DNA of 64,000 nt from Crambe crambe (lineage: Eukaryota > Porifera > Demospongiae > Poecilosclerida > Crambeidae). The notes under the pieces are model-generated. The model had not been told where the DNA came from. It did no database searches and worked only from the letters and a program-made list of their open reading frames with translations. Made by a program: the position numbers and the translations under genes. Below are positions 2,473 to 64,000 of this stretch, in pieces; position 1 is the first letter of the stretch, and the number at the start of each line of letters is the position of its first letter. The stretch lies in contig OZ004593.1 in the NCBI GenBank assembly GCA_963924555.1, positions 6,997,295 through 7,061,294 of the forward strand, in the 5' to 3' direction.

Positions 2473-2792
2473 CTTTCCTGCCCGGGTCGAAGTTCAAATT
2501 TCAAACCACGTGTTAAAATTTACGGAGCTACAGTCACGATATGCGACGAATAGGCGGATGTGAATGCATTTTGCAATTTGGCCTAACCCATACGGTGAAT
2601 TGAAGTAGCTGTACACTAATCGTATAAACAACGAGTCTTAGTGGTGTTGTGTTATTTGTCAAGACCCTGCGAGGTACTGGTTACAGGTGTTGTATTGCAG
2701 GAAGATTTTGTTAGTTTGGACGAGAAGCGAGCGTATTTAACGGATCGTCACGATCAGGATCCAGGACTTGACTGCTGAGAGATCGAGCAGAA
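2473..2792. promoter_or_regulatory. divergent promoter region IMP3 / Notch
   Basis: This 320-bp gap separates the two start codons and must hold both promoters and 5' untranslated regions. I see no TATA box or other clear factor site. Confidence 0.5.
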
Positions 2793-10445: not shown

Positions 10446-10743
10446 TCCAAGGTCTCCCAATACACACCAATTGTCTCACAACCACCACCACCCACCTAAC
10501 TTCAATCTCCACTGTTACATTCCCCCCCCCCCCCCCCCCCCCCCATAATGTTGTACAGTACATACCTAAATTATCATGGAACTTCCCAAAAACTATTTTT
10601 GTACAAGTCATTTTGCATTAGATGTGTTATAAATGGCACAAAATTTTACTGCTGCACACAATTATTGATTGTCATCCCTTTACTAGTCTTGTGTCAACTT
10701 TATAATTAAATAGTATAAAACGATGTAAAAAAAACACGCTCAT
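10446..10743. other. convergent 3' region of Notch and the START protein
   Basis: The 298 bp between the two stop codons hold the 3' untranslated regions. The only clear feature is the poly-C run at 10522-10544. Confidence 0.6.
10522..10544 (+). repeat. homopolymer run of 23 C
   Basis: Uninterrupted C run in the presumed 3' untranslated region of Notch. The exact length could be a sequencing estimate. Confidence 0.9.
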
Positions 10744-14344: not shown

Positions 14345-14473
14345 AATCCTTCTTAAGATAGACAAAAGCGGTAAAGGTCGTCATCCAAGGAACTGATAGC
14401 CCCGCCCATCTTAGCGCCGGAATTACATATACAACACGTCTTATTCTCTAAGGCGCGCGTAAAACCTCTCGGC
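14345..14473. promoter_or_regulatory. divergent promoter START protein / SET
   Basis: The 129-bp spacer holds two GC-rich patches, GCGCGCG near 14453 and a GTAAAGGTCG stretch near 14371 resembling a nuclear-receptor half site. There is no TATA box. Confidence 0.4.
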
Positions 14474-15590
14474 ATGGCAGCAATTGGTCCTCCGGCGGCT
14501 AAAGCGCCTAAAATAGATGGAGCCAATGAAGATGGTCATGGAGCAGATGCTGATAAAGCTATTACAGAAGAAGAACAGATAATGTTGGAGAAAGTAGTGT
14601 CCATTCAACACGAGATTGATCAACTAAATGAGAGAGCATCAGAAGAAATCCTGCACGTGGAACAGAAATACAACAAGCTGCGACAGCCCCAGTATCTTCA
14701 GAGGTCTCAACTAATCACCAACATACCAGATTTCTGGCCCTCTACTGTATCCTCTTTTTAAATCTTTTAGCAAACTAAACCAGCGTCCTTTTCCCTCCTT
14801 AATTCCATCCTAGTTGATGAACAATCCACAGTTTGTGGATCTTTTGAGTGGGGAGGATGAAACAGCACTTCAGTACCTGCAAAATTTAACTGTGGAAGAA
14901 TACGAAGACTCCAAATCGGGCTACAAGATATCTTTAGTAAGGTGTAGCTGGATTGTTGCTTGCTAAGTTGTAACGATGGTTTATTTTGGGGTGCAGTATT
15001 TCAGGCCAAATCCGTATTTTGAGAATGAAGTTATCTCTAAGGAAGTAGTAATGGAAGGGTCAGGAGAGACTGCCGTTATCAACACACCTATACATTGGAA
15101 GGAAGGAAAGGTGTGTCTCTGTGCATGCATGCATGTGTGCTCATGTACTTACCAGGTATAGTGTAACATCATAGGACCTGACAATGCGATCGTCAGTTGA
15201 TCCCGAATCAGAAAGGAAAAGAGGACTAGAGGAATCAGCAAGTTTCTTTAGCTGGTTCTCTGATGATAGCACACTAGAAGAACCAGGAGAGATTATTAGA
15301 GATGACATTTGGCCGAACCCATTACAGTTCTATCTGGTATTACTTTAGTGGCCAACATACACTATTGCAAGCATTCATCTGTTTGTGTACCACCTAGAAC
15401 TCAGAAACAGCACTGAATGAAACGTTTGAAGAGGAAGAAGATGAGGACGAGGATGGACTAGAGGATGAAGAAGAGGACGAGGATGATCCTGTTGGTTATT
15501 GTTAGCAAGTCTTGTGCACGATGGTTATAGTCTTGTTTGTGTGTATTACAGGAGGTAATCGACTTGAGTGACGATGAAGAGGACGTTTGA
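14474..15590 (+). CDS. SET: SET / TAF-I / I2PP2A, NAP-family histone chaperone
   Basis: Nuclear histone chaperone of the NAP1 family and inhibitor of PP2A. Exons 14474-14746, 14814-14936, 14997-15110, 15175-15336, 15398-about 15490 and about 15552-15590 give about 267 residues. The N-terminal dimerising coiled coil starts at [20 protein letters not shown]; the earmuff domain shows [12 protein letters not shown] and FFSWFSD, and [15 protein letters not shown] matches human SET. A long Asp/Glu tail closes the protein. The last splice is uncertain: a GTTGGT donor keeps the acidic end LSDDEEDV, while the GTTATT donor would stop at 15571. PTPA, an activator of the PP2A that SET inhibits, lies 8 kb downstream. 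Confidence 0.93.
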
Positions 15591-15640
15591 ACACATGCAT
15601 CAACCCACACAATATAAAGCTAAGCGCACTCATCACACTT

Positions 15641-15646
15641 AATAAA
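15641..15646 (+). terminator. AATAAA polyadenylation signal
   Basis: A perfect AATAAA hexamer lies 51 bp after the SET stop, the usual place for the SET transcript end. Confidence 0.7.
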
Positions 15647-15777
15647 GCTGGAATACCACGTCTCTTCTGCTATAAGCTTTCACTTCTTTCTTTTGAATAT
15701 TATGGTTGTCTCATTTTAATCTATATATCTTGAAAGGCAATACATCGATGTAAGATTAGTGCGTTTCAGGTGTAATT

Positions 15778-16685
15778 CTATTTATAAGGTTGTTTCTGGG
15801 AACGGGGACGTGAACCGGCAGAGCGGGACTTGGTAGCTGCACTCTGCTGAAGCTGGTAGGCCATAGCATGAATCTTGAATCCATATAATCTGAAATATAC
15901 AGCAAGATCAACAAATGAAATGGGTGGGTAGGAACGAAGGAGCTGTGTGTCTTTGCGTTTGTACTGCTGCATCTCACCTGGGGACAAACTGGTTGGTGGG
16001 TTTAGGAGGGCGTAGTTCAGGGTGGACCATGAATAGCATGTGAGGGAAACCCGTACCGAAGTAAACACCATCTATGTGATGGTGGCGTGAAGACTTGGGC
16101 GTGTACACATCACAGCATTTGGGACAGTATAACTTTACCATCGACTCGCCAGGCACATCAGACAAGCCTATATCAAAAAAGCAACAATTCATTTCGAGTG
16201 TTCACACAATGTATTACCAATGGGCAGGACTGGCTGATTCTCACAAAATACACGTGAACAGTGACCAAAGTCTCCTTGTTGGTACTTCTCGATCTGCACA
16301 CGGAAAATGGGCATCAAAGATCCTCAATGTCACACTGCTGAGAGCTTACCATTTGAGCAAGCCCTCTGTTGGTGAGAATGTAGCGAGCATGAATGAGACC
16401 ATAAAGCATTTCAGCAGCCTGTTCTACTAAATCACTCTGGTTATCTTCAAGCTCATCATCAGGTTCTAAATCCAGGATAGTATCCAGGGCCTGACGGTAA
16501 TGTGGCACTTGTTCATTTAATCCTGTCAAATTGAATTTGTCCTGAATGTAATCCTCGTCCACCTGCAATAAATTTAAGAACTGGAAAGGAAAGATTTCTT
16601 TTTCAAAGCTTACTTCACAAAAAAATTCATTTCCGCGAAGGGAACAGAACCACGAAATCCAAGATACTTCCTCAGAACTGCTCAT
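15778..16685 (-). CDS. CSNK2B: casein kinase II regulatory subunit beta
   Basis: Regulatory subunit of the CK2 tetramer. Exons 16685-16614, 16562-16350, 16293-16218, 16167-15978 and 15889-15778 join to 220 residues (human 215). The N-terminus [14 protein letters not shown] is the conserved CK2 autophosphorylation start. The acidic loop [14 protein letters not shown] is present. The zinc finger has its four cysteines in FGHCSRVFC and [18 protein letters not shown]. The C-terminal tail is rich in Ser, Arg and Gln and differs from vertebrates, as is normal. Head-to-head with POLE3. Confidence 0.97.
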
Positions 16686-16814
16686 CGCGATGCTTCACCG
16701 ATGCTTGTGTTCTGTTTGCAATTGGTTGGGGTGAAAAGGTCACGTCACGTCATTGGCAATTGGCTTCTAAGCAACGCGCATGCTCATACAATGGTGCGCG
16801 TTATTTGGAATAAA
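16686..16814. promoter_or_regulatory. divergent promoter CK2 beta / POLE3
   Basis: The 129-bp spacer holds ATTGG (inverted CCAAT) boxes near 16721 and 16752, a tandem CACGTCACGTCA stretch with a CRE-like half site at 16741-16752, a GGGGTGAAAAGGTCA direct-repeat motif at 16728-16742, and an NRF1-like CGCGCATGC near 16775. There is no TATA box. Factor assignments are inferred from motif shape. Confidence 0.5.
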
Positions 16815-17454
16815 ATGGCAGAGAGACCTGAAGATTTGAGTTTACCAGCTTCTGTGGTTGCTAGAATTATCAAAGATGCAGTAAGAGAATAATAAAAGAT
16901 AAAACATCTTCTATCTATAAGATCATCCATTCAGCTTCCAGAAGGTGTAAATGTGTCTAAAGAGGCACGAACAGCCATAGGCAAGGCCGCCAGTGTATTT
17001 ATTCTTTATGCTACAGCTTGGTATGGTACTTTGGTCATAGCATAACCACTATTATTTATACTCTTGTTTGTACTTAGTGCTAATAATTTTGCTTTGAGGA
17101 GTAAACGTAAGACATTGAGTGCCGGTGATGTTTTTTCTGCTCTGGAGGACATGGAATTGGAGGAATTCATTCCAGAGCTGAAAGAGTGCCTTGAAGGTAT
17201 TTGTGCAGAGGAACATTGCACTTTATGTATTGTTTTATGCTGTTTACAAATTGACTGCTACAGCATACAAACAGGAGCAAAGAGGGAGAAAAGAGGCAGC
17301 AGCTGACCGCAAAAAGAAAGTGCAACTGTCACAAAATCCACCTCCAAATGAACTCCCTAGTCAGATTCCTGCAAGTAGTGATATATCAGAGGTAGATCAG
17401 ACGGCAAGTTCACAGCCCACCACCCTAGCCAGACCGGTTCCCATGATCCAATAA
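16815..17454 (+). CDS. POLE3: DNA polymerase epsilon subunit 3 (histone-fold, CHRAC17)
   Basis: Histone-fold protein that pairs with POLE4 in DNA polymerase epsilon and with CHRAC15 in the CHRAC remodeller. Exons 16815-16880, 16935-17020, 17078-17196 and 17264-17454 give 153 residues (human 147). [20 protein letters not shown], then [15 protein letters not shown] and [18 protein letters not shown] form the three histone-fold helices. The usual basic stretch [17 protein letters not shown] follows. The C-terminal tail is Pro/Ser/Gln-rich rather than acidic as in human POLE3, which is unusual for the family. Confidence 0.95.
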
Positions 17455-17711
17455 TCAGATTCATTCTTTATAACAATCGTATAGGTATTCATAATGATGT
17501 GTAAGGATATATGGAGGAGGGGCAAAGTAGCTGGCTCCTGATCTTGCTAGTAACTGGAAGTGGATCTCTATAGCTCCTTAGTACAGCATCATAGACAGCT
17601 CATAACAACTCTCTTTGGGAGTGTTGATTATAGGTTGACAGTTAACTAGTCGAGATCTACAGTGATAAGGGTGAACGCCCCCTACTTTGAAGGAGGCGTA
17701 TCTCGTTCGCA

Positions 17712-19991
17712 ATGGCTGCAATACCAGCATGGAAGCAAGCACTTCTCGACAGAAAAAAGAAGCAAGAAGAAGAGGAGAAGAAAAATCTAGCCAAAGCCGA
17801 AGAAGCTAAGTTGGCTTCTTTGCCTCCCTGGAAGAGAGCTATAATTTTGCGGGAGAAGCAAGCACAGGATATAGGACTAGTTGAGAGCAACTCTCCAGTT
17901 TTGAAGCGAGTCGCATCAAGCATATTGCAAAATGAAAGGAAAACTATTGAGAAGCAGCAAAAGGGTGAAAGTAAGGACTCTTTTGGCAAGTGGCAGACAG
18001 CAGTAGAAAGGGTGAAGGGTGCTGATTCCCCAATTCTGAACAAGAAGCCTTCTTTAGAGAGGAGAGTAAGCTCTCTAAATTACTCTAGTGACAGTAAGTC
18101 TTCACCCAAACAGCAAGCCAAACTGTCAAGCCAATCATTTTCTGGTGGGAGTCCTAGGTTGGCTAATAAAAATTTAGTGCTCAATCGATGGAGCCATGTT
18201 ATGACAAACGGCCACTCTGATACATGTCAAAAAATGCCGAGGGAGAAGAATTCTTCAGTAAGCACCAGCTCAGCTCCCATAGCAACTTCTCCTCCAAGAA
18301 GTCGTGCACATGATGTTACGACAAATGCCCACTTGGATGCAAGTACAAAAATGCCGAGGGAGAAGAATTCTTCAAGCTCAGCTCCCATAGCAACTTCTCC
18401 TCCAAGAAGTCATGCACGTGTATCATCCCGTCAAGATGAAGAAGATCCTAGTCTTGCAGGTCTGCCAGCTTGGAAAAAAGCCCTCATTCTGAAGAAACGC
18501 CAGCAGCAGCAGAAACCAGAAAGTTCTGCTTCAAAAAATGAACACAAAGAAAACAGCCAACTTGAAGGGGAAGATGAAACTGATGCACCTAGTAAGAGAC
18601 CAGCACCTGTTACCAAAATAGCGAGCAAGCAATCCTCCACAATATCAAAGAGTGAAAAACAACCTGAAGTTATCAATAAGAGCGAAGGAGAGAAAAGTGA
18701 AAGTGGTAATTTGAGACTGATTGAACAGGAAGGGAAAACTCTGCACGCTCCCATTTACAAAGAAGTAGAAGACCAGTGGGCCAATGTCAATGAAGAAGAT
18801 AAAAAATTCAAAGATTTGCCTCTATGGAAACAAGCCCTAATCAAGAGACGACGACGTGATATCGCTAAACGAAGTGGGTTGCCTGTGACAATAACCGAAA
18901 CACTGCCAGTTGCAGAGACTTCTGCAAAGGATGTCAAAGAAGTAACCCGAACAGATGGAAAGAAGCAACCTAGCCGAGTCTCAAAGTCGAAGGTCACAAC
19001 TGAAAAAAGCAAAATCACTTCAAAGAGATCAGTTGGTGGGAAATCTGCATCTAAAAATATCAGCACAGTGACTGATAAATCCAAGAACGAGCAAAAGGCA
19101 AAAGCAAAGGTAGATTCTGCAAAAGTGATTCTTAGACCCACAAAGAGCAGAGATTCGAAGCCTGCAAGGAAAGCACCTTTACCACCTACCCTCAAGAAGG
19201 AAGAACCCGAACCAATGTTTACCTACAGCTTTTCAAAGTCCACACATCACACACTGGATACAGGTGGCTCTGCAAGTGATTCCACTGACTCTGATTTAGA
19301 GGAAGCAGTCATCACTAACCTCGACGAATCCTCGTCTGATGAAGGTGACAGTGGAATAGTTCTCAAGAGCTATACAACTTCTGAGAAATTGCCAGACACC
19401 GATATGAAACGAGGGAGTGTGCAGAAAAGTGAATCCTCGGATGACATCCTGAACAAATCCAAGTCAGTTCTGAAGAAACCTGGCAAAAAAAAGAAAGTAA
19501 GTCTATTTCCCACCCCCAAACACATAATCACTCTGTATGTAATAATTTCATTGCAGCACTTAAGACGTGTCTCGTGGAGCGATAGTGCTCTTATCTCTGA
19601 ATATTACTATCCCAAATACAACTATTCGGACTATGAAGAAATTCACGAAGAGACACCACAAATATCTTCTCATGAGAACTCGGGCCTTTCACAGCGACTC
19701 CATCCTTCACTTCGCCTGTCCAATGATACTAACTCTGATCCCTATCATTATGGCTACAGCCCTTCTGCTTCACCAGAAAGTTCCCTCGCAAATTTCATTC
19801 CGAGCTCACTCTCCTCTTACTCACCTAGAATCTTGGCAAACTATTCTGACCCAATTGAGAGCTCTGATGCTGCCACAGAAGAGGCTGGGATATCCATTAC
19901 TGGAAGCACACAGATGAGCCCAACCAATGAAGTGGACACCGATGATTTCTATGCTGGTCTCACATCCAACACAGCAGCTTTACTGTGGTAG
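17712..19991 (+). CDS. phostensin/taperin-like protein (PP1-docking, actin-associated family)
   Basis: Two exons, 17712-19496 and 19557-19991, separated by a 60-bp intron that has no stop and is a multiple of three, so a retained-intron form stays open. The spliced protein has 739 residues. It opens with MAAIPAWKQALLDRKKKQEE, very like the phostensin start, and repeats the motif four times: IPAWKQALL (residue 4), LPPWKRAII (about 37), LPAWKKALI (about 253), LPLWKQALI (about 373). Near the C-terminus RRVSWSDSALISEYYYP matches the phostensin/taperin tail; RVSW fits the RVxF/W docking motif for protein phosphatase 1. The rest is charged and probably disordered. Vertebrate relatives bind actin ends and PP1; that role here is inference. 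Confidence 0.75.
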   Translation: MAAIPAWKQALLDRKKKQEEEEKKNLAKAEEAKLASLPPWKRAIILREKQAQDIGLVESNSPVLKRVASSILQNERKTIEKQQKGESKDSFGKWQTAVERVKGADSPILNKKPSLERRVSSLNYSSDSKSSPKQQAKLSSQSFSGGSPRLANKNLVLNRWSHVMTNGHSDTCQKMPREKNSSVSTSSAPIATSPPRSRAHDVTTNAHLDASTKMPREKNSSSSAPIATSPPRSHARVSSRQDEEDPSLAGLPAWKKALILKKRQQQQKPESSASKNEHKENSQLEGEDETDAPSKRPAPVTKIASKQSSTISKSEKQPEVINKSEGEKSESGNLRLIEQEGKTLHAPIYKEVEDQWANVNEEDKKFKDLPLWKQALIKRRRRDIAKRSGLPVTITETLPVAETSAKDVKEVTRTDGKKQPSRVSKSKVTTEKSKITSKRSVGGKSASKNISTVTDKSKNEQKAKAKVDSAKVILRPTKSRDSKPARKAPLPPTLKKEEPEPMFTYSFSKSTHHTLDTGGSASDSTDSDLEEAVITNLDESSSDEGDSGIVLKSYTTSEKLPDTDMKRGSVQKSESSDDILNKSKSVLKKPGKKKKVSLFPTPKHIITLYVIISLQHLRRVSWSDSALISEYYYPKYNYSDYEEIHEETPQISSHENSGLSQRLHPSLRLSNDTNSDPYHYGYSPSASPESSLANFIPSSLSSYSPRILANYSDPIESSDAATEEAGISITGSTQMSPTNEVDTDDFYAGLTSNTAALLW
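18180..18425 (+). repeat. in-frame tandem duplication within the phostensin-like gene
   Basis: Two direct copies of about 115-120 bp, both encoding KMPREKNSS followed by SAPIATSPPRS. The copies differ at few positions, suggesting a recent duplication. Confidence 0.85.
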
Positions 19992-20102
19992 AAACTATTT
20001 ATTTAATATCATCACTTTTGTGTTTGTTTAATAATTCTTTTTTTTTATCACATCATAATTTTATGAAAGATTAACTTCAGGTTTATGCATGAAAGATTGA
20101 CT

Positions 20103-32135: not shown

Positions 32136-32181
32136 GCGAAGATTAAAGGGAAAGTCCCTCTTCTAAGACCCTAAAGACGGT

Positions 32182-34117
32182 ATGGACCAGAAACAGTTGG
32201 AGTTTAGGAAGCTACTATTCAGAATCAGCGAGAAATTATCTCGTCAGGATTTTGAAGCTCTCACATTTATATGTAGAGATGTTATCTCTGTTTCCCGAAT
32301 GGAGCGAATCAGATCAGCGACCGAGTTATTTCAAGCTTTGACTGAAAGAGGGAAGCTCTCTTCCAAGGATCTGACTTACTTTACTCGTCTATTGACAACT
32401 ATTGGAAAAGAAAGCCTGTTGCTCGATCTCAAAACAGCAGGATACTCTGTCCCGTTATCTCCTTCCCTGCCAACAAGAGACTACCTGTTGCAGGAGTGTC
32501 TCGTCAAGATTGCTCAAGGTCTCTCTTCAACCGAAGTGGACAGACTGATATTTGTGTTACTAGATCCTCTCCATCAAAGTCCAGACAAGATTTTCTCTGC
32601 TACTCAACTGTTTCAGTTGTTGCAACAGAGGCAGTGCATCACGTGTACTAACTTGCGCCCTCTCTATGATGCTCTCCTGGAATTGGGTCGCGTCGATCTC
32701 ACCACTCACATCAACACGTACCTGCAACTAGCTAATCTTCCTTCTTACCAGTTGATTGAGAACAATGGTAAGATTCCGTTCTAGTCCTAGTATAGTATGA
32801 TCTATTATAATTGACACAGGAATGTCAAGACAAGAACCCTTTGCTCCTCCCTTTCCTCCACACCTCGTTGGTGCTTCAACTCCTTCATCTGGTGTGGCTA
32901 GCTATCCGCACGCTTCCATTTCTAGCTCTGGAGACTCTACTTTAGCATCTGATCACTCTGACCTAACCTCTATCGAAGAATCTTCACGTGAAGGTGGAGG
33001 GGGTGCAACACTTCTTGTTTCACCTAGAGCTGCAGAACCCATTGCCCCGTTTGGGCTGAAGTATATTTTCGAGGAAGACAATGAAAGCCAACAGACGCAG
33101 TTATTTCACTCCCTGGCAGTGAAGGAGGGGGAATTAAGGTACAAGGAGCAGGAGATTGAACGGCTACAAAGAGAACTGAGTGAGCAGGTTCAGCGTGGAG
33201 ACAGGGTTATGGAGGAACGAGCTGGAGATCGTGATTTTTACTCAAAGAGTATTCAGGAACTTCAAGCTCACTTAACCATCAAGAATCAGGAAGTGGCTAG
33301 CCTCGTGCGAGAACTGCAGGATTACCACCAACAGATGGCTGCCATGCAGGCTTCATCCCCCGTCAAGGAAGAAGATCTCTACAAGATGGACAAGCAACCA
33401 CACGGGCTCTGTCTCATCTTCAACAATTATGAATTTCATCACCCCTTTGACATGGAGAAAGCTCATCCCTCTAGAGGCGGGGCAAATGTTGACCAGTTCA
33501 ACTTGACCCAAACCTTCAAATACCTCCGTTACGAAGTGATAGTCAAAGAAAACCTCACTGCCCAGCAAATGCAGGACACCCTTTTCGAGATTGCACATCG
33601 GGATCACAAGGGATATGATAGCTTTGTGTGTTGCATCTTGACGCATGGTGAAACCAATGTGGTCCATGGTGCCGATAGCCAAGAAGTGGACCTCTTGCAT
33701 TTTGCTGCAACCATGAAGCTTAGTCCACCACTGAGGGAGAAGCCAAAGATGTTTTTTGTTCAGGCATGTCGTGGTGAAGGGGAAAGTAAGGGTTACGAGA
33801 TACAGAAAGATTCAGGGGGAGCCCAACCTTCCATCACTGCCACTATCCCACAAGAAGCGGACTTTTTTTTTGGCTACGCTACACCAACGGGCAATGCAGC
33901 TTATCGAAGCAAGCGACATGGATCGTGGTACATTTCAGAGCTGTGCAAGGTACTTACACAGCATGCTTACACCCACAACTTAAGTAGCATGATGAAGAAA
34001 GTGAATTACCAAGTGTCCAAGGCCTACACTAAGGAGGGCTTCAAACAATGTCCAGAGTATGTAGATAGGCTACGCAAAGAAGTCCACTTCTTTCATTTCT
34101 TAAAAGGTCAGCTTTAA
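32182..34117 (+). CDS. initiator-type caspase A: two DEDs, coiled coil, caspase domain
   Basis: Two exons, 32182-32767 and 32820-34117, give 627 residues. Two death-effector domains occupy about residues 1-85 and 97-185 (FRKLLFRISEKLSRQDFEAL opens the first). A Ser/Pro linker leads to a heptad-rich helix near 283-365 (EIERLQRELSEQVQ). The protease domain starts at about 383 (HGLCLIFNNYEF). Catalytic His is in CCILTHGE and Cys in FFVQACRGEGE; S1-pocket arginines appear in PSRGGANVD and AAYRSKRHGSW. A QKD-SGG stretch in the subunit linker is a candidate processing site. It resembles caspase-8/10 but with an added coiled coil. All catalytic features are intact. Confidence 0.93.
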
Positions 34118-41105: not shown

Positions 41106-42889
41106 TCATACTGAAGTGAAGAATTTAATTCCTTTCCTCATTCTAGTAGTGACTTCCATACACTGTTTTACTACTTCTTCTCCACCAGACAATCTGCCTG
41201 CAGCCTGGCTTATCATGTTTGTTACTTTTTCTAGCATCTGTTGTAACGTCAGAGAATATACCGATTGTGGATTCGTCAGTGTTTGTTGGAGTGCATCTGC
41301 GAACCAAGATCCACTTGCAGGACTGGTATAAGCTGGGTTTCCTTCTGTAGAAGCATTAGCAATCAACACGTCACAATCGACATGCAGGATCGGAGCAATA
41401 GGATCTGGTGGGTACAGTTCAGGAGAGTCCACTTCAACGTTGGCTACGCGACATGCCTGAAAGAAAAATAACTTGGGCTTGCCCAGCAATGATGTGTTGG
41501 ACTTTATGGGGTCAATAAACAACGATCGATGCAGAACGACTCCATTACTCCCATAAATTCCAGTTTGATTACCATGAGAGGACACACAACAAACGAAACT
41601 GTCAAATTCCGAGTGATCGAGATTGGCTACTCTGGAGACGAGACTCCTCATGCTGTCGGACGAAAGATCACGATGTAACTTGACTTTGTAATTCAGAAAT
41701 CCAAAGGTCTGTGCAAACAGCTCAGCATCCTTGATAGCACCCTTTCGTTGTTTCAGGCTAACGTGAGGCTTCTGGGGATCAGAATCAAACTTCTCGTTTG
41801 CAATTACAATAGCTAATCCATGTGGGACTCGAACCATGTCGTATAGTGGCACATCATTTTTCGTCCATAATATTTCTTGCAGCTTTGCCAGCTGGCCACA
41901 TAATGAATTCACTTCATCTATCTTCTTCCGAAGCTCGCCTCTCAAAGACTGAATCTCTTTACCACGATCTTCATCAAGTTTGCTATGCAGTTTCTCTATT
42001 TCTTTCTGTTGTCGATCGAGGTGGTTGTCTTGCTCGACAATCTTTGATAAAAGCTGGTGAGTGCTCAATACGGGATCTGGCTGGGAGCTATCAGTTTGGA
42101 TCAAACTACCAGTTGAAGGTGTGTAGAAGTTCTCAGAAGGGGCTGCACCAACAAACAAACAAACAAACACCAAACAAAAGAAGAGTAGATAGTTATTTAA
42201 AACTACGGGCAATGTCACTCACCCTGTTCCTCGGGAGTAGAAAGGCTCATTTTCAAATGTGTCGATTCCCATGCACCTGAAATATAATTATCGATAGAAG
42301 TAGCCAAGTCGAGTCGTCCAATGAGAACAAAGACATGCCTCAGAGGCTGAAGCTGTGTGACACCAACACCAAGAAGGTGGCTTTCTTGAAGTTTGGAAAA
42401 TAATTGCTCTCCTGATTGAATGTCTCTAGCATTTTGGTAATTTATGGATTCACAAATTCCAGCAAAGAAAAGGCTTAAATCACGGATATTATCAGCTGAC
42501 AGACTATCTGATAACTCCCCTAGGAATTTTTTAATTTGAGGCAGTTTAGGTTTTTGGTGTTGAGCAACCGAACAGCTTGTTAACGAGGGAGCAACATCAT
42601 ACGAAGTGGTGGGAGCTGTGGAAAAGCAACTTCTAACACAATCACGTTTGCCAACCTCCTGCAATACTTCCTCCAGAAAAGAGAAGTCGTCCTGCGAGAG
42701 AAGATCCTCACGAGTGGACATCAAGCAGAAAACGTCAAAAGCCGTTCTCGCCTTCTCCAACTGCTGCCTGGGAAGGAAGTCAGAAAGCATAAACTTGATT
42801 TTTTCCACATCAGAATCGCTCATCCTATTTGAAATCTTGTAGAGCCCGTGCCTGAAGGCGAATAATTTCCCTTTGTCATCTTCCTCCAT
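41106..42889 (-). CDS. caspase B: two DEDs, coiled coil, atypical caspase domain
   Basis: Two exons, 42889-42223 and 42142-41106, give 567 residues. I start at MEEDDKGKLFAFRHGLY because the first DED begins there; an in-frame ATG at 42985 would overlap the PIG-C first exon. Two DEDs (about 1-85, 115-205), a coiled coil (KIVEQDNHLDRQQKEIEKL) and a caspase domain from VPHGLAIVIANEKF. The catalytic His (CCVSSHGN) and Cys (FFFQACRV) remain, and QRKGAIKDAE keeps one S1 arginine. But QACxG has become QACRV, and the S1 loop reads PAYTSPASGSW, where caspase-8 has SYRNP, so its arginine is Thr. VEVD-SPE is a possible self-cleavage site. Activity or specificity is probably altered. Confidence 0.9.
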
Positions 42890-42900
42890 TTTCAATTCCT

Positions 42901-42914
42901 TGACCTTTGATCCC
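42901..42914 (-). promoter_or_regulatory. DR1/TCF-like site in the caspase B / PIG-C spacer
   Basis: The reverse strand reads GGGATCAAAGGTCA, one base from the HNF4-type direct repeat. The forward strand contains CCTTTGATC, a perfect TCF/LEF core. It lies inside the 35-bp spacer between the two start codons. Confidence 0.42.
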
Positions 42915-42924
42915 GGGTCCAAAA

Positions 42925-44062
42925 ATGGCTTGGGAAAAGGTGCTTTACAGAAATCAAGATTATCCGGATAATTATGTGGAACCAAGTTACTTTTTAAAGG
43001 AATTGAAAAGAAATTGTAAGATCCTGTACCTCGATTGACCTATTGGCAATGTGCATCTCTATTTCAGTGTATACACCAACTTATACTTTGAGAGAGCTCG
43101 TTTTTTCTTCAGAATGTGTTGTACGACCATTCACATCGTAGGTTAAATTGAAAAATAACGACATTTCTATGTTCTTAATAGAGTTTGTTTGTTTGTATGC
43201 CTTCATTTTTACTCGAAAGAAGGATGGATCAATCCCTTTGTTCTATTTACAATCTGTACATCACTTGCTTTTTTCTTTGCCCTGGCATTTACAGAAGGTA
43301 ACAGTAATAATCAGTGAATACTATAACTTATTTCTGTCATCACAGACGTGATGAAATTTCTGCAGCCGTCCCTGTTTTTACATGGTTTCCTTTGTGGTGT
43401 AGCCCCTATTTTGTGTACTTTAACGCAGTCCATCAGTGACGACACATTATGGGCCATGACTGTAAATGTGAAGATTCTCTCTCTTTTTTGGAGTTATTCT
43501 CTATTTCTTTATGTAGGTAGGTATGCTGATTTTCCACTTGATTTTCTACAATTACAAACAAACAAATCCAGGGTTTGTAATGAAACGACTTTGTATTAGA
43601 AATTAGAATTTTTAATTATAGGGTCTTCAATGCAATATCTTTGAATGCTGCAGTCTTTGCTGCTGTATGTTTGGCATCAATGATGAATGCAGCATTTGAT
43701 GGATTCGTATTAGTTTCTGTTGCCATCAACCTGTTTGTATTCTCTCCAAAATATAACGACGTAAGGACAGAAGTATCAGGTATTAACGAATTTATCAAAA
43801 TTAGTTCTTGGCAGAATATTACCGTATATCTGCTGTTAACTACAATGATTCTATTACTGAACACGTCCCTTCCTGCAACTCTATTTTTCCTTGTGATGAT
43901 CGTGTCTCTCTCATTGATATTTCCGATGTGGCTCTGTTCCTTACAGAATTTAAAGAAGTAAGTAATCGATTTGAAATAATCTTTGTCATAAATAATTTTT
44001 TTAGTAACATATATGGACCTTGGGATGAAGCAGTGATTCATGAAGATGACTATGCTAGCTGA
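42925..44062 (+). CDS. PIGC: GPI-GlcNAc transferase subunit PIG-C
   Basis: Multi-pass ER subunit of the complex that makes GlcNAc-PI, the first step of GPI-anchor synthesis. Six exons, 42925-43015, 43068-43137, 43182-43297, 43346-43520, 43622-43957 and 44005-44062, join in phase to 281 residues (human 297). MAWEKVLYRNQDYPDNYVEP matches the human WQKVLYERQPFPDNYVD start; LCTLTQSISDDTLWAMTV and SLNAAVFAAVCLAS match the membrane core; NIYGPWDEAVIHED is the conserved C-terminus. Several hydrophobic spans fill the protein. It is the last gene before the subtelomere, about 18 kb from the telomeric array. Confidence 0.93.
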
Positions 44063-53997: not shown

Positions 53998-54179
53998 GGA
54001 GAAGGATCCCTCACCATCCCTCATATATATAATATGATCCCTTATATTCATATACTTGAGTGTTTTATCCCTCAAATTCGCAAATTTGAGTCTTTTTTCC
54101 CCTTATGGTCATATACTTGGAGGATTTTACCCTTAAGTCAACCTCAACTTCATGGATAAATCTTATCTCGATTTAGGGG

Positions 54180-54595
54180 TAAAATATCCATGAGGTTAGG
54201 TTTCTTTAACCTGGGTTGAGGTTTCCAGAGGTAAAATAGCCATGAGGTTATGTATTGTTAACCTGGGTTGAGGTTTCCAGAGGTAAAATAGCCATGAGGT
54301 TATGTCCTGTTAACCTGGGTTGAGGTTTCCAGAGGTAAAATAGCCATGAGGTTATGTCTTGTTAACCTGGGTTGAGGTTTCCAGAGGTAAAATAGCCATG
54401 AGGTTATGTCCTGTTAACCTGGGTTGAGGTTTCCAGAGGTAAAATAGCCATGAGGTTATGTCTTGTTAACCTGGGTTGAGGTTTCCAGAGGTAAAATAGC
54501 CATGAGGTTATCCAACGTTAACCTGGGTTGAGGTTTTCAGAGGTAAAATAGCCATGAGGTTTTGTTTCGTTAACAGGGGTTGAGGTAAAGTATCC
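54180..54595 (+). repeat. 52-bp minisatellite, array A1
   Basis: About eight copies of a 52-bp unit that begins GTTAACCTGGGTTGAGGTTT and includes AGAGGTAAAATAGCCATGAG. Successive starts are 54257, 54309 and 54361, exactly 52 apart. Confidence 0.95.
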
Positions 54596-54599
54596 ATGA

Positions 54600-54870
54600 G
54601 GTTAGTTAAGTATTTATGAAGTCCCTCAAGTCACGGTAATGCACAGTAGATGTCCCTCAAGTCTATTCCTACACTTTGAAGTATTACCAAGTACACTTAA
54701 GTCCCTCAAGTATAGATAAAGACATTCAAAGTCCCTCAAGGCCAGATAGAGATTACGGAAGTCCCTCAAGTCATGGTAATGCACAGTAGATGTCCCTCAA
54801 GTCTATTCCTACACTTTGAAGTATTACGAAGTACACTTAAGTCCCTCAAGTCCATGCATCCGTAGCGCAG
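54600..54870 (+). repeat. GTCCCTCAAG repeat block, copy 1
   Basis: The phrase AAGTCCCTCAAG or TGTCCCTCAAGTCTATTCC recurs nine or so times, in a tandem pair of about 135 bp (54617 and 54753). Confidence 0.85.
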
Positions 54871-54919
54871 GCTGAAGGGGAAGTGCACGCCGTAGCCAGC
54901 CATATGACACACTCAGTAG

Positions 54920-55309
54920 ATGTCCACCAGTCAACCTACCAACAGGCCGGCAACACTGAAAAGACTGTCGAAACGTAAGTCATTTACAGTCTGCACACAC
55001 ACTAGTTCAACTCACGTTGTACCATTCAGATACAAGAAGTTGTGGCCACGCCTTCCCAAAGCACATCAAACTCCACCCCCAGCAAAAAAGAGACGACTCT
55101 ATTCCGAAGAAGAATACTCAATCCTAAAGAGATATTTCGACATTGGCGGAGAGAGGTCTAAAGTGGCAAAACTTTCTGAGTGTGCAGATTTCCTTAGAGA
55201 GTACCAGAGAGATATGCAGTTTGAGGGGAAGGACACAGGACAAGATCAAAAACATGATAAAGCAGAGCAAGTGACAGCAAACCAACAGTTCTTTTTATTT
55301 AAAATGTAA
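54920..55309 (+). CDS. 129-residue open frame in subtelomeric repeats (doubtful gene)
   Basis: Encodes a basic protein with KKRRLYSEEEYSILKRYF and KLSECADFLREYQRDMQFEG. The pattern of a basic stretch, an acidic-start helix and a second helix recalls SANT/Myb-like or transposase-associated DNA-binding regions, but I do not recognise it. An inverted, truncated copy of its middle part lies at about 57185-57255, so it belongs to a duplicated repeat block. It could be a fragment of a mobile-element gene. Whether it is expressed is unknown. Confidence 0.3.
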   Translation: MSTSQPTNRPATLKRLSKRKSFTVCTHTSSTHVVPFRYKKLWPRLPKAHQTPPPAKKRRLYSEEEYSILKRYFDIGGERSKVAKLSECADFLREYQRDMQFEGKDTGQDQKHDKAEQVTANQQFFLFKM

Positions 55310-55775
55310 TCAATCATTCTCACAAAAAACAGTACTAATGTAATCAATCATTCTCACAATTTCTTTCTATTTCTAATCAAGTCTCACAATTCAAATTTTT
55401 CCTCTAGAAATTTAGATACTTTTTGCTGGACATCCCTCCTAGCTATACACTTATCTTTCCCTCCCGGCTTGCACGTCTCGGTGAATATCCTTCATGGATC
55501 CTTCCTGGATATTCTGGGACTTTGAAATTTCAGATACTTCTAGGAGGACAATTGGTGGCCCCCATGGATTCTGAGAGGACAATTGGTGACCCCCATGGAT
55601 TCTGGGAGGACAATTGGTGACCCCCATGGGCCAGATATATCATCCCTCCTAGCTATGACCTTACCTTTCCCTCCTGGCTTGCACATCTCAGTGAATATCC
55701 TTCATGGTTTCGTATTCGATCCTTCCTGGATATTCTGGGACTTTGAAATTTCAGCTCCTTCTTGGAGGATCCAGA
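55310..55775 (+). repeat. subtelomeric block, first copy of the 31-bp / 250-bp family
   Basis: Contains two copies of TAATCAATCATTCTCACA, then ATCCCTCCTAGCTAT, ATATCCTTCATGGATCC and GACAATTGGTGGCCCCCATG in the order seen in the large array from 57253. Confidence 0.8.
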
Positions 55776-56795
55776 GGTAAAATAGCCATGAGGTTATGTC
55801 TTGTTAACCTGGGTTGAGGTTTCCAGAGGTAAAATAGCCATGAAGTTATCCATCGTTAACTTGGGTTGAGGTTTCCAGAGGTAAAATAGCCATGAGGTTA
55901 TGTCTTGTTAACCTGGGTTGAGGTTTCCAGAGGTAAAATAGCCATGAGGTTATCCAACGTTAACCTGGGTTGAGGTTTCCAGAGGTAAAATAGCCATGAG
56001 GTTATGTCTTGTTAATCTGGGTTGAGGTTTCCAGAGGTAAAATAGCCATGAGGTTATGTCTTGTTAACCTGGGTTGAAGTTTCCAGAGGTAAAATAGCCA
56101 TGAGGTTATGTCTTGTTAATCTGGGTTGAGGTTTCCAGAGGTAAAATAGCCATGAGGTTATCCAATGTTAACCTGGGTTGAGGTTTCCAGAGGTAAAATA
56201 GCCATGAGGTTATGTCTTGTTAACCTGGGTTGAGGTTTCCAGAGGTAAAATAGCCATGAGGTTATCCAACGTTAACCTGGGTTGAGGTTTCCAGAGGTAA
56301 AATAGCCATGAGGTTATGTCTTGTTAACCTGGGTTGAGGTAAAATAGCCATGAGGTTATCCAACGTTAACCTGGGTTGAGGTTTCCAGAGGTAAAATAGC
56401 CATGAGGTTATGTCTTGTTAATCTGGGTTGAGGTTTCCAGAGGTAAAATAGCCATGAGGTTATCCAATGTTAACCTGGGTTGAGGTTTCCAGAGGTAAAA
56501 TAGCCATGAGGTTATGTCTTGTTAACCTGGGTTGAGGTTTCCAGAGGTAAAATAGCCATGAGGTTATCCAACGTTAACCTGGGTTGAGGTTTCCAGAGGT
56601 AAAATAGCCATGAGGTTATGTCTTGTTAACCTGGGTTGAGGTAAAATAGCCATGAGGTTATCCAACGTTAACCTGGGTTGAGGTTATCAGAGGTAAAATA
56701 GCCATGAGGTTATGTCTTGTTAACCTGGGTTGAGGTTTTCAGAGGTAAAATAGCCATGAGGTTTTGTTTCGTTAACAGGGGTTGAGGTAAAGTAT
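55776..56795 (+). repeat. 52-bp minisatellite, array A2 with higher-order structure
   Basis: About twenty copies of the A1 unit. The six bases before GTTAA mostly alternate between TGTCTT and TCCAAC/T, giving 104-bp dimers. Two units (near 56336 and 56638) lack the same 10 bp, about 300 bp apart. Confidence 0.93.
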
Positions 56796-57252: not shown

Positions 57253-59050
57253 TTTTTTATCTTTCCCTCCCGGCTTGCACGTCTCGGTGAATATCCTTCA
57301 TGGATCCTTCCTGGATATTCTGGGACCTTGAAATTTCAGATACTTCTAGGAGGACAATTGGTGGCCCCCATGGATTCTGAGAGGACAATTGGTGACCCCC
57401 ATGGGCCAGATATATCATCCCTCCTAGCTATGACCTTACCTTGCACATCTCAGTGGATATCCTTCATGGTTTCGTATTCGATCCTTCCTGGATATTCTGG
57501 GACTTTGAAATTTCAGCTCCTTCTTGGAGGACAATTGGTGGCCCCCATGGATTCTTGGAGGACAATTGGTGGCCCCCATGGATCCTGAGAGGACAATTGG
57601 TGACCCCCATGGATTCTGGGAGGACAATTGGTGACCCCCATGGGCCAGATATATCATCCCTCCTAGCTATGACCTTACCTTTCCCTCCTGGCTTGCACAT
57701 CTCAGTGAATATCCTTCATGGTTTCGTATTCGATCCTTCCTGGATATTCTGGGACTTTGAAATTTCAGCTCCTTCTTGGAGGACAATTGGTGGCCCCCAT
57801 GGATTCTTGGAGGACAATTGGTGGCCCCCATGGATCCTGAGAGGACAATTGGTGACCCCCATGGATTCTGGGAGGACAATTGGTGACCCCCCATGGGCCA
57901 GATATATCATCCCTCCTAGCTATGACCTTACCTTTCCCTCCTGGCTTGCACATCTCAGTGAATATCCTTCATGGTTTCGTATTCGATCCTTCCTGGATAT
58001 TCTGGGACTTTGAAATTTCAGCTCCTTCTTGGAGGACAATTGGTGGCCCCCATGGATTCTTGGAGGACAATTGGTGGCCCCCATGGATCCTGAGAGGACA
58101 ATTGGTGACCCCCATCATCCCTCCTAGCTATGACCTTACCTTTCCCTCCTGGCTTGCACATCTCAGTGAATATCCTTCATGGTTTCATATTCGATCCTTC
58201 CTGGATATTCTGGGACTTTGAAATTTCAGCTCCTTCTTGGAGGACAATTGGTGGCCCCCATGGATTCTTGGAGGACAATTGGTGGCCCCCATGGATCCTG
58301 AGAGGACAATTGGTGACCCCCATGGATTCTGGGAGGACAATTGGTGATCCCCCATGGGCCAGATATATCATCCCTCCTAGCTATGACCTTACCTTTCCCT
58401 CCTGGCTTGCACGTCTCAGTGAATATCCTTCATGGTTTCGTATTCGATCCTTCCTGGATATTCTGGGACTTTGAAATTTCAGATACTTCTAGGAGGACAA
58501 TTGGTGGCCCCCATGGATTCTGAGAGGACAATTGGTGACCAGATATATCATCCCTCCTAGCTATGACCTTACCTTTCCCTCCTGGCTTGCATATCTCAGT
58601 GAATATCCTTCATGGTTTCGTATTCGATCCTTCCTGGATATTCTGGGACTTTGAAATTTCAGCTCCTTCTTGGAGGACAATTGGTGGCCCCCATGGATTC
58701 TTGGAGGACAATTGGTGGCCCCCATGGATCCTGAGAGGACAATTGGTGACCCCCATGGATTCTGGGAGGACAATTGGTGATCCCCCATGGGCCAGATATA
58801 TCATCCCTCCTAGCTATGACCTTACCTTTCCCTCCTGGCTTGCACATCTCAGTGAATATCCTTCATGGTTTCGTATTCGATCCTTCCTGGATATTCTGGG
58901 ACTTTGAAATTTCAGATACTTCTAGGAGGACAATTGGTGGCCCCCATGGATTCTGAGAGGACAATTGGTGACCAGATATATCATCCCTCCTAGCTATGAC
59001 CTTACCTTTCCCTCCTGGCTTGCACGTCTCAGTGAATATCCTTCATGGTT
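57253..59050 (+). repeat. ~250-bp macrosatellite with internal 31-bp repeats
   Basis: Seven or so units, each with ATCCCTCCTAGCTATGACC, CTTGCACATCTCAGTGAATA, TTCGTATTCGATCCTTCCTG and CTGGGACTTTGAAATTTCAG, followed by two to four 31-bp subunits GGACAATTGGTGGCCCCCAT. Open frames here are repeat by-products. Confidence 0.95.
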
Positions 59051-59305: not shown

Positions 59306-59319
59306 ATTTCAAAGTATAT

Positions 59320-59770
59320 AACCTACATGGCTAAATTAGGTGCCCCGGGTTAATACAGGTTGAGGTTATAAACCTACATGGCTAAATTAGGTGCCCCCGG
59401 GTTAATACAGGTTGAGGTTATAAACCTACATGGCTAAATTAGGTGCCCCCGGGTTAATACAGGTTGAGGTTATAAACCTACATGGCTAAATTAGGTGCCC
59501 CCGGGTTAATACAGGTTGAGGTTATAAACCTACATGGCTAAATTAGGTGCCCCCGGGTTAATACAGGTTGAGGTTATAAACCTACATGGCTAAATTAGGT
59601 GCCCCCGGGTTAATACAGGTTGAGGTTATAAACCTACATGGCTAAATTAGGTGCCCCCGGGTTAATACAGGTTGAGGTTATAAACCTACATGGCTAAATT
59701 AGGTGCCCCCGGGTTAATACAGGTTGAGGTTATAAACCTACATGGCTAAATTAGGTGCCCCTGGGTTAAG
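59320..59770 (+). repeat. 52-bp minisatellite, array B
   Basis: Eight to nine near-identical 52-bp units starting GTTAATACAGGTTGAGGTTA and containing CTACATGGCTAAATTAGG and CCCCCGG. Starts repeat every 52 bp (59371, 59423, 59475). Confidence 0.95.
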
Positions 59771-59789: not shown

Positions 59790-61345
59790 GGAGATAAGCC
59801 CTCAGATTTCTTCAGGTTTCTTCAGGTTAGGTTCAGGTTAGGTTAGGTTGAGGTTAGAGGTCCAAATCGGCCCGAAGGGCATATGTACACCCCCTAGGGG
59901 ATCTCTATGGCACATGGGGGCAGGGTTAGCTGTCCTGGGGGCAATTTCATCTGGATTACCACGAAATTATCCCTCATGCTTCTCAGGTTATCCCTCCTGA
60001 CTGTTTTCCACCCATTCAGGTTTCTTCAGGTTTCTTCAGGTTAGGTTAGGTTGAGGTTAGGTTGAGGTTAGAGGTCCAAATCGGCCCTAAGGGCATATGT
60101 ACACCCCCTAGGGGATCTCTATGGTACATGAGGGCAGGGTTAGCTGTCCTGGGGGCATTTTCATCCGGACTACCACGAGGTTATCCCCCATGCCTCTCGG
60201 GTTATCCCTCCTGACTGTTTTCCACCCTTTCAGGTTTCTTCAGGTTTCTTCAGGTTTCTTCAGGTTAGGTTAGGTTGAGGTTAGGTTGAGGTTAGAGGTC
60301 CAAATCGGCCTGAAGGGCATATGTACACCCCCTAGGGGATCTCTATGGCACATGAGGGCAGGATTAGCTGTCCTGGGGGCATTTTCATCCGGACTACCAC
60401 GAGGTTATCCCTCATGCTTCTCAGGTTATCCCTCCTGACTGTTTTCCACCCATTCAGGTTTCTTCAGGTTTCTTCAGGTTTCTTCAGGTTAGGTTAGGTT
60501 GAGGTTAGGTTGAGGTTAGAGGTCCAAATCGGCCCTAAGGGCATATGTACACCCCCTAGGGGATCTCTATGGCACATGGGGGCAGGGTTAGCTGTCCTGG
60601 GGGCAATTTCATCTGGATTACCACGAAATTATCCCTCATGCTTCTCAGGTTATCCCTCCTGACTGTTTTCCACCCATTCAGGTTTCTTCAGGTTTCTTCA
60701 GGTTAGGTTAGGTTGAGGTTAGGTTGAGGTTAGAGGTCCAAATCGGCCCTAAGGGCATATGTACACCCCCTAGGGGATCTCTATGGCACATGGGGGCAGG
60801 GTTAGCTGTCCTGGGGGCAATTTCATCTGGATTACCACGAAATTATCCCTCATGCTTCTCAGGTTATCCCTCCTGACTGTTTTCCACCCATTCAGGTTTC
60901 TTCAGGTTTCTTCAGGTTTCTTCAGGTTAGGTTAGGTTGAGGTTAGGTTGAGGTTAGAGGTCCAAATCGGCCCTAAGGGCATATGTACACCCCCTAGGGG
61001 ATCTCTATGGTACATGAGGGCAGGGTTAACTGTCCTGGGGGCATTTTCATCTGGATTACCACGAAATTATCCCTCATGCTTCTCAGGTTATCCCTCCTGA
61101 CTGTTTTCCACCCATTCAGGTTTCTTCAGGTTAGGTTCAGGTTAGGTTAGGTTGAGGTTAGAGGTCAAAATCGGCCCGAAGGGCAAATGTACACCCCCTG
61201 GGGGATCTATAGTGCTCATGGGGGCAAGGTTAAATGTCCTGGGGGGATTTTATTCAGAGGTTATCCCCCATGCTTCTCAGGTTATCCCTCCTGACTGTTT
61301 TCTACCCATTCATGGCTATTTTTGGGGCCCCCTAGGTTTGATCAG
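59790..61345 (+). repeat. ~204-224 bp satellite, seven copies, with TTAGG-like and TTCAGGTTTC subrepeats
   Basis: TCCAAATCGG (last copy TCAAAATCGG) starts at 59861, 60075, 60299, 60523, 60737, 60961 and about 61165. Spacings are 214, 224, 224, 214, 224 and 204. Each unit contains AGGTTAGGTTAGGTTGAGG and one to three TTCAGGTTTC 10-mers, which account for the 10-bp steps. Confidence 0.93.
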
Positions 61346-61896
61346 GTTTGATCAGGTTTGATTATTGGTCGAAAACGACCATGGGGGCCTCGAATTTAGC
61401 CGTGAGGGCATTTTTTTAGTCCTAAGGGACGTTTTTTTAGCCATTAGGGCTCGATATTATCCATGAGGGATGCCATGAGGGCCTTGCTCAAAAGAAAATT
61501 GTAGTTTATCCCCCAAGGTTGGTAACCTGACCCCTGTGGCATCAAAACCCATCCCTCAACTCAAAATAAGACCAGTTTTTAGTCCTAAGGGCCGGGTTAT
61601 GTTGCCACGAGGGATAACCGGGTGCTCATGAGGGCAAGGTTAAGGTAGCTTTAGGGATATTTCCCTCATGCTACCGAACCTGGCCCCCATGCTTATCAGG
61701 TTTGCCCTCAGGCTCGAAACCTAACCTCAGGTTAAACCTGAGGTTTCTTCAGTTTTCTTTAAATCCCTAGTTTTCGAGATCGATTTTGCCCTCAAGGGCC
61801 AAGGTTTCTCGGCATGGGGGCGATTTTTAGCCCTAAGGGAACCTAGGTTTCTTTAGGTTAGGTGAGGCAAAACCTCAGGCATCCCCGACTCCATAG
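61346..61896 (+). other. telomere-proximal transition sequence
   Basis: Single-copy-looking sequence with degenerate phrases such as CATGAGGGC, CCCTAAGGG and AGGTTTGATC. No gene is visible. It ends ACTCCATAG directly at the first telomeric hexamer. Confidence 0.6.
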
Positions 61897-64000
61897 CTAG
61901 GGCTAGGGCTAGGGCTAGGGCTAGGGCTAGGGCTAGGGCTAGGGCTAGGGCTAGGGCTAGGGCTAGGGCTAGGGCTAGGGCTAGGGCTAGGGCTAGGGCT
62001 AGGGCTAGGGCTAGGGCTAGGGCTAGGGCTAGGGCTAGGGCTAGGGCTAGGGCTAGGGCTAGGGCTAGGGCTAGGGCTAGGGCTAGGGCTAGGGCTAGGG
62101 CTAGGGCTAGGGCTAGGGCTAGGGCTAGGGCTAGGGCTAGGGCTAGGGCTAGGGCTAGGGCTAGGGCTAGGGCTAGGGCTAGGGCTAGGGCTAGGGCTAG
62201 GGCTAGGGCTAGGGCTAGGGCTAGGGCTAGGGCTAGGGCTAGGGCTAGGGCTAGGGCTAGGGCTAGGGCTAGGGCTAGGGCTAGGGCTAGGGCTAGGGCT
62301 AGGGCTAGGGCTAGGGCTAGGGCTAGGGCTAGGGCTAGGGCTAGGGCTAGGGCTAGGGCTAGGGCTAGGGCTAGGGCTAGGGCTAGGGCTAGGGCTAGGG
62401 CTAGGGCTAGGGCTAGGGCTAGGGCTAGGGCTAGGGCTAGGGCTAGGGCTAGGGCTAGGGCTAGGGCTAGGGCTAGGGCTAGGGCTAGGGCTAGGGCTAG
62501 GGCTAGGGCTAGGGCTAGGGCTAGGGCTAGGGCTAGGGCTAGGGCTAGGGCTAGGGCTAGGGCTAGGGCTAGGGCTAGGGCTAGGGCTAGGGCTAGGGCT
62601 AGGGCTAGGGCTAGGGCTAGGGCTAGGGCTAGGGCTAGGGCTAGGGCTAGGGCTAGGGCTAGGGCTAGGGCTAGGGCTAGGGCTAGGGCTAGGGCTAGGG
62701 CTAGGGCTAGGGCTAGGGCTAGGGCTAGGGCTAGGGCTAGGGCTAGGGCTAGGGCTAGGGCTAGGGCTAGGGCTAGGGCTAGGGCTAGGGCTAGGGCTAG
62801 GGCTAGGGCTAGGGCTAGGGCTAGGGCTAGGGCTAGGGCTAGGGCTAGGGCTAGGGCTAGGGCTAGGGCTAGGGCTAGGGCTAGGGCTAGGGCTAGGGCT
62901 AGGGCTAGGGCTAGGGCTAGGGCTAGGGCTAGGGCTAGGGCTAGGGCTAGGGCTAGGGCTAGGGCTAGGGCTAGGGCTAGGGCTAGGGCTAGGGCTAGGG
63001 CTAGGGCTAGGGCTAGGGCTAGGGCTAGGGCTAGGGCTAGGGCTAGGGCTAGGGCTAGGGCTAGGGCTAGGGCTAGGGCTAGGGCTAGGGCTAGGGCTAG
63101 GGCTAGGGCTAGGGCTAGGGCTAGGGCTAGGGCTAGGGCTAGGGCTAGGGCTAGGGCTAGGGCTAGGGCTAGGGCTAGGGCTAGGGCTAGGGCTAGGGCT
63201 AGGGCTAGGGCTAGGGCTAGGGCTAGGGCTAGGGCTAGGGCTAGGGCTAGGGCTAGGGCTAGGGCTAGGGCTAGGGCTAGGGCTAGGGCTAGGGCTAGGG
63301 CTAGGGCTAGGGCTAGGGCTAGGGCTAGGGCTAGGGCTAGGGCTAGGGCTAGGGCTAGGGCTAGGGCTAGGGCTAGGGCTAGGGCTAGGGCTAGGGCTAG
63401 GGCTAGGGCTAGGGCTAGGGCTAGGGCTAGGGCTAGGGCTAGGGCTAGGGCTAGGGCTAGGGCTAGGGCTAGGGCTAGGGCTAGGGCTAGGGCTAGGGCT
63501 AGGGCTAGGGCTAGGGCTAGGGCTAGGGCTAGGGCTAGGGCTAGGGCTAGGGCTAGGGCTAGGGCTAGGGCTAGGGCTAGGGCTAGGGCTAGGGCTAGGG
63601 CTAGGGCTAGGGCTAGGGCTAGGGCTAGGGCTAGGGCTAGGGCTAGGGCTAGGGCTAGGGCTAGGGCTAGGGCTAGGGCTAGGGCTAGGGCTAGGGCTAG
63701 GGCTAGGGCTAGGGCTAGGGCTAGGGCTAGGGCTAGGGCTAGGGCTAGGGCTAGGGCTAGGGCTAGGGCTAGGGCTAGGGCTAGGGCTAGGGCTAGGGCT
63801 AGGGCTAGGGCTAGGGCTAGGGCTAGGGCTAGGGCTAGGGCTAGGGCTAGGGCTAGGGCTAGGGCTAGGGCTAGGGCTAGGGCTAGGGCTAGGGCTAGGG
63901 CTAGGGCTAGGGCTAGGGCTAGGGCTAGGGCTAGGGCTAGGGCTAGGGCTAGGGCTAGGGCTAGGGCTAGGGCTAGGGCTAGGGCTAGGGCTAGGGCTAG
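61897..64000 (+). repeat. telomere: perfect (CTAGGG)n, about 350 copies
   Basis: From 61897 to the last base the sequence reads CTAGGG without a visible exception: 2104 bp, 350 full copies plus four bases. The G-rich strand runs 5'->3' toward the end, as required at a right-hand chromosome end. The unit is TTAGGG with the first T changed to C. No TTAGGG unit is seen within the array. The array continues beyond the window or the window is cut at the contig end. Confidence 0.93.

Follow-up and report, generated by a model that had tools for sequence, protein, structure and literature searches.

Among animals, the hexamer TTAGGG is regarded as the ancestral and almost invariant telomeric repeat, an assumption built into probes for telomeres, qPCR primers and checks of assemblies; the ancestral animal telomerase template is 5'-CUAACCCUAA-3'. 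Animal telomerase RNA is conserved as far as the sponges with one architecture, and three sponge RNAs have been described (PMC8480181). Template-driven changes of the telomeric motif have been shown in Mimulus (PMC12169523) and argued for chalcid wasps (PMC8977481). The hexamer CTAGGG is described in an earlier note on the DNA studied here as an unstable variant repeat of human telomeres, which agrees with the literature (PMC7073516, PMC3919612). In the human male germline, CTAGGG blocks are associated with mutation at a rate of 20% per gamete (PMC7073516); the motif lowers the binding of TRF1 and TRF2 in vitro (PMC3919612), the OB folds of BRCA2 show no detectable binding of a CTAGGG oligonucleotide (PMC9192595), and CTAGGG folds into an antiparallel G-quadruplex with a G-C-G-C tetrad (PMC3867476). 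No species with a CTAGGG telomere was found in the open-access literature: in the excerpts retrieved, the motif figures as a variant repeat of human telomeres or as an oligonucleotide used in tests, and one Arabidopsis paper contains it solely in the title of a reference. The motif may be listed in telomere databases such as TeloBase; neither CTAGGG nor CCCTAG appears in the main text of the TeloBase paper. The main text of the genome paper on Crambe crambe (Demospongiae, Poecilosclerida, Crambeidae; PMC12166358) contains no word starting with "telomer", and telomeres are unmentioned in the genome note on Diacarnus erythraeanus, which belongs to the same order.

Our results indicate with high confidence that CTAGGG is the telomeric repeat of Crambe crambe, most likely added by a TERT-based telomerase with a changed RNA template. 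The window, i.e., the whole stretch of 64,000 nucleotides that was analysed (C16:6997295-7061294), ends on the final base of contig C16 (7,061,294 bp), which we infer to be chromosome 13 of this sponge, with the array at the end of the window as its right-hand telomere. The earlier note had described a perfect CTAGGG array with an outward G-rich strand, distal to subtelomeric satellites, and all of this was borne out (Table 1). All 2,104 terminal bases fit (CTAGGG)n, Tandem Repeats Finder reports 100% matches and zero indels, and the G-rich strand runs 5' to 3' toward the contig end; chance is no issue for an array of this length. The other end of C16 carries a CCCTAG array of 6.8 kb. Proximal to the window array lie satellites with 52-bp and 224-bp units, the latter separated from the array by 584 bp without a long tandem array. 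The sequence from the first 224-bp unit up to the array (59802-61896) is shared with the sequence immediately inside the left arrays of C6 (98.6% identity) and C8 (94.2%), and the left array of C9 is attached within a unit of the 224-bp satellite. Further inward, the window holds two caspase-like genes with death-effector-like N-terminal regions (assigned by eye), at 32167-34117 on the forward and 41106-43039 on the reverse strand, ca. 7 kb apart.

Table 1. Terminal array and subtelomeric features of the window (positions within the 64,000-nucleotide stretch).
Feature	Positions	Strand	Remarks
Subtelomeric 52-bp satellite arrays	54178..56788	+	Arrays at 54178-54586 and 55770-56788
Subtelomeric 31-bp repeats	57440..58970	+	Nested in 253/433-bp higher-order units
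Subtelomeric satellite, 52-bp unit	59315..59769	+	8.8 copies, 99% matches
Subtelomeric satellite, ~224-bp unit	59802..61312	+	7 copies
Distal subtelomere	61313..61896	+	Junction ...CCATAG/CTAGGG; identical junction base at the C6 and C8 left ends
Terminal telomere array (CTAGGG)n	61897..64000	+	350 perfect units at 61897-63996, then CTAG to base 64000

The published assembly odCraCram1.1 comprises 143.20 Mb in 124 scaffolds and 18 chromosomes, and was built from PacBio HiFi (public reads ERR12015695) and Hi-C data with a consensus QV of 58.1 (PMC12166358). The genome searched in our study holds 143.14 Mb in 119 contigs, the 18 large ones corresponding to the 18 chromosomes of odCraCram1.1. Our reading covered 10 kb at the left end of each of the 18 large contigs and 1.2 kb at the right end of 17, with the window supplying the 18th right end. 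With the window counted, CTAGGG closes 28 of the 36 chromosome ends (15 of 18 left, 13 of 18 right). At the 15 left ends CCCTAG starts within 33 bases of the contig start, and the arrays extend inward to between 4.8 and 9.6 kb, with inserts included in the case of C3 and C13 (see below). A proper terminal array is lacking at the remaining eight ends (C1, C12 and C15 left; C1, C10, C13, C17 and C21 right). The left ends of C1 (positions 1-20000; L010-L011) and C12 (1-10000; L023) show other sequence, then CTAGGG and then CCCTAG, head to head, and are probably scaffold misjoins of two telomeric ends. At the left end of C15 a terminal array is absent from the first 10 kb, which contain just three units at 4.4 kb; the right end of C10 has an inverted CCCTAG piece nearby, and the last 1.2 kb of C1, C13, C17 and C21 contain no CTAGGG array. 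Runs of TTAGGG or CCCTAA of at least three units occur in none of the 18 left ends (first 10 kb) and those of at least two units in none of the 17 right ends (last 1.2 kb). The first 10 kb of four small contigs (C2, C4, C7 and C22, out of ca. 100) contain no array. The proposal that the window array is a telomere, and neither lies inside a chromosome nor arose once through faulty assembly, holds genome-wide: the array is terminal, the other chromosome ends that carry one agree with it, and no end that was read has a TTAGGG run.

The same picture emerges from counts over the whole genome. (CTAGGG)4 gives 40,889 overlapping matches (19,099 forward, 21,790 reverse) vs. none in the reversed control, and (TTAGGG)4 gives two, one per strand, both internal and short (ca. 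four units). Within the 15 left arrays, 15,458 perfect units stand against 46 interruptions, comprising 22 single extra G's, 10 CTAGG units with one G fewer, four ATAGGG units and 10 others, among which are a 14-base TTAGGG block and two inserts of ca. 1 kb (C3 and C13). This block, with two units (L024:5471-5484, on C13), is the only TTAGGG in the arrays proper; two further units lie within the C3 and C13 inserts. Gain or loss of a single G is the slip expected from telomerase or from HiFi reads. Variants made by human telomerase affect positions 1 and 3 of the repeat but not position 2 (PMC3919612), a pattern with which the four ATAGGG units would, by analogy, be in agreement. A scan of public sequences for (CTAGGG)6 found arrays of 6 to 15 units in two viral and 22 bacterial stretches. 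The array begins at the first bases of its contig in only one of these (L073:1-100), a marine MAG contig labelled Spirochaetaceae that opens with eight CCCTAG units followed by mixed CCCTAC, CCCTAG and CCCTAA units; this start resembles a eukaryotic telomere joined to bacterial-looking genes.

The arrays are attached to several kinds of sequence. Nine left arrays (C5, C10, C11, C14, C17, C18, C19, C20 and C21) adjoin a 20-bp satellite family, and at five of these (C5, C11, C14, C19 and C20, assigned by eye for C14 and C19) the satellite CTAATTG meets the array CTAGGG with CTA common to both. The C18 junction shares 1 nt, the C17 junction shares TA, and those of C10 and C21 share nothing or nearly nothing. 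At the C9 left junction, which follows GGGGAT, the array overlaps the native continuation by 2 nt (CT). The left ends of C3, C6, C8, C13 and C16 and the window, for which there is no native copy to compare, were omitted from the junction comparison. An overlap of at least 3 nt is seen in three of eight distinct junction types, for which a simple two-sided model gives P ~0.006, a value to be read with reservation: sorting the junctions into types was done in part by eye, and the types are not wholly independent because different ends have subtelomeres in common and the satellites at the three CTA junctions are related to one another. The CTA junctions are suggestive in that they are what telomerase priming on an exposed CTA would leave.

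The inserts in the left arrays of C3 and C13 represent a single element of 1.0 to 1.1 kb, present in three copies that are 98.6 to 99.2% alike (L014:5393-6496 on C3; L024:6143-7137 and L024:7769-8874 on C13). The element has no long reading frame. One end of every copy adjoins a CCCTAG tract, and two of the three copies have telomere array on both sides, so that the element may be mobile and target telomeres. Each copy contains, as judged by eye, a hammerhead-ribozyme-like motif, on which Rfam made no call; such motifs are of a kind found in Penelope-like elements.

The genome encodes at least part of the machinery known from telomerase-based telomeres. For TERT, two adjoining matches to the RNA-binding domain (PF12009) were found at C6:7555175-7555665 with 57.9 and 34.6 bits. 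The first of these holds one in-frame TAG, possibly lying within an intron, and over 33 residues there is a match to TERT chains in the PDB (E = 3.6e-4). The whole genome was searched for telomerase RNA with RF00024; out of 286 candidates, 27 were scored and nothing matched at E ≤ 0.001, with the control genomes equally silent. A template pattern of about one and a half CTAGGG repeats occurs at 74 sites vs. 12 in the reversed control, many of them palindromic or tandem-repeat in appearance. One template-like sequence, CTAGCCCTAGC, forms a 28-bp tandem array with 13 sites at C12:247631-247980 and recurs at five sites ca. 5 to 18 kb apart at C14:3094231-3128578. Eight of the 74 sites were examined over 353 bases each, and none of them is convincing as a telomerase RNA. 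A loose pattern for a P6.1-type hairpin, as known from vertebrate telomerase RNA, matched four of the eight (L078, L080, L084 and L085). Three of these (L080, L084 and L085) were rejected because the hairpin lies within the template-like site or at most 55 bases from it, and L078 because its hairpin sits in an apparent protein-coding exon on the opposite strand. Rfam returned two weak, sub-threshold matches to unrelated families and no telomerase RNA for the eight sites. With a stricter P6.1-like pattern, 30 sites were found genome-wide vs. 27 in the control, none of them within 600 bases of a template site.

Candidate telomere-binding proteins were found as well. Two POT1-like genes are present, at C20:502097 (L052; 93.9 bits) and C21:151856 (L053; 49.2 bits). 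The C20 gene encodes both DNA-binding OB folds (PF02765 and PF16686) and aligns with the POT1 structure 1xjv over 296 query residues; at the C21 locus an extra, weak POT1-OB-like stretch lies upstream (18.1 bits, under the cut-off). Aligning the C20 protein with 11 of its 12 database relatives, the fragment P0011 being omitted, revealed no change that would clearly account for binding of CTAGGG. The position of human K39 is occupied by C in Crambe and by R in eight of the 11 relatives (by eye). TRF-type Myb domains are encoded at C18:1936517 and C19:2171514, where 201 bases were examined at each locus, with 39 and 42% identity to the human TRF2 Myb domain (E-values 3.5e-7 and 2.7e-5). TRF2 is the best PDB match of both domains, with weaker matches to other Myb proteins in the case of C19. 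Both domains carry unusual residues in the recognition helix. In the telobox segment, human TRF2 has VMIKDRWRT vs. VSLKDKARN (C18:1936487-1936687; L088) and NQLKDKYRN in the two Crambe domains, so that the telobox Trp is replaced by Ala in one and by Tyr in the other. With this Trp lost, one of the two may be no telomere binder at all. A profile search for the TRFH domain (PF08558) gave no match, with the control silent too, and the exact telobox codon pattern had no match either; introns and the altered telobox may explain both results.

A telomerase whose template has changed best explains the CTAGGG arrays, given that sequences for TERT, two POT1-like proteins and two TRF-type Myb domains are all present in the genome. 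TERT-based telomerase would then copy an RNA template reading 5'-...CUAGCCCUAG...-3', which would have arisen from CUAACCCUAA by an A-to-G transition where the template codes for the opening base of each repeat unit. Ends dating from before the change could presumably still have been extended, since G in the alignment region of such a template can form a regular pair with C as well as a wobble pair with T. We infer the sequence of this template, the activity of the telomerase and the acceptance of CTAGGG by the binding proteins. The earlier note had argued that a pure array implies a changed template. That argument stands in so far as CTAGGG is the genome-wide repeat (28 of 36 ends) and none of the ends read carries a TTAGGG array; the RNA gene itself, however, was not found with RF00024 or among the eight of 74 template-like sites. 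The note further took the array to imply shelterin/POT1-type proteins adapted to it; candidates for such proteins are encoded, and they may have changed along with the repeat. A more far-reaching possibility, which we put forward tentatively and consider somewhat doubtful, is that the whole system has switched, with RNA template, TRF-type Mybs and both POT1-like proteins co-evolved to CTAGGG, possibly across a clade of sponges, and with a mobile element perhaps inserting at CTAGGG tracts.

Other explanations have to be weighed against a changed-template telomerase. The arrays may be real and terminal yet maintained mainly by recombination between ends, either ALT-like or by rolling-circle copying of a homogenised array. 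The sharing of subtelomeres between several ends, as at the window junction with its close counterparts on C6 and C8, would fit such exchange, as would the copies of one element beside the CTAGGG tracts of C3 and C13, and the RF00024 search, with 27 of 286 candidates scored, did not reveal a telomerase RNA. However, TERT sequence is present, the arrays are extremely homogeneous over 15,458 units, and the sequences on which they sit are of several kinds, unrelated or in different phase, in many cases with the short CTA or CT overlaps that are typical of priming. Upkeep mainly by recombination, therefore, seems unlikely.

Much less probable still is that the true telomere is TTAGGG and that CTAGGG is merely a proximal variant zone in which the assembly stops. 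Such a zone would have a parallel in human proximal telomeres, which hold variant blocks including CTAGGG (PMC7073516, PMC3919612), and assemblies can end inside long arrays, but up to 9.6 kb of CTAGGG was read without an outward shift to TTAGGG at any of the ends covered, and (TTAGGG)4 occurs just twice in the genome. We give least credence of all to an artefact of assembly or contamination, in which an array derived from a symbiont or from sequencing was attached to sponge contigs. The head-to-head joins on the left of C1 and C12, together with the inverted piece at the right end of C10, do point to the misjoining of some stray telomeric fragments. Nevertheless, 28 of the 36 chromosome ends agree with each other, the arrays run into subtelomere common to several chromosomes, and the assembly rests on HiFi and Hi-C data of high consensus quality (QV 58.1; PMC12166358).

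CTAGGG, thus, is a real and apparently unreported animal telomere motif, one base from TTAGGG. Each unit carries CTAG and, therefore, BfaI should cut the Crambe telomere, unlike a TTAGGG telomere, which makes the claim easy to test. With the motif changes in Mimulus and chalcid wasps, Crambe probably has the mechanism of a template change in common; it differs in being a sponge and in requiring one transition with the size of the unit kept. The human variant is the identical hexamer, but there it forms a block inside TTAGGG telomeres, whereas in Crambe it makes up the entire assembled array at 28 of 36 ends. This raises the question why a repeat that is mutable and poorly bound by TRF in human cells forms the whole telomere here. 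To the canonical animal (TTAGGG)n telomere, with its TERT and H/ACA-type RNA, the likeness is close: both have a terminal hexamer with an outward G-rich strand, GGG is kept, and TERT and POT1 sequences are present. The first base of the Crambe repeat, however, is C instead of T in nearly every unit, and such a clean one-base switch in a sponge offers a natural experiment on the joint change of telomerase RNA, TRF and POT1.
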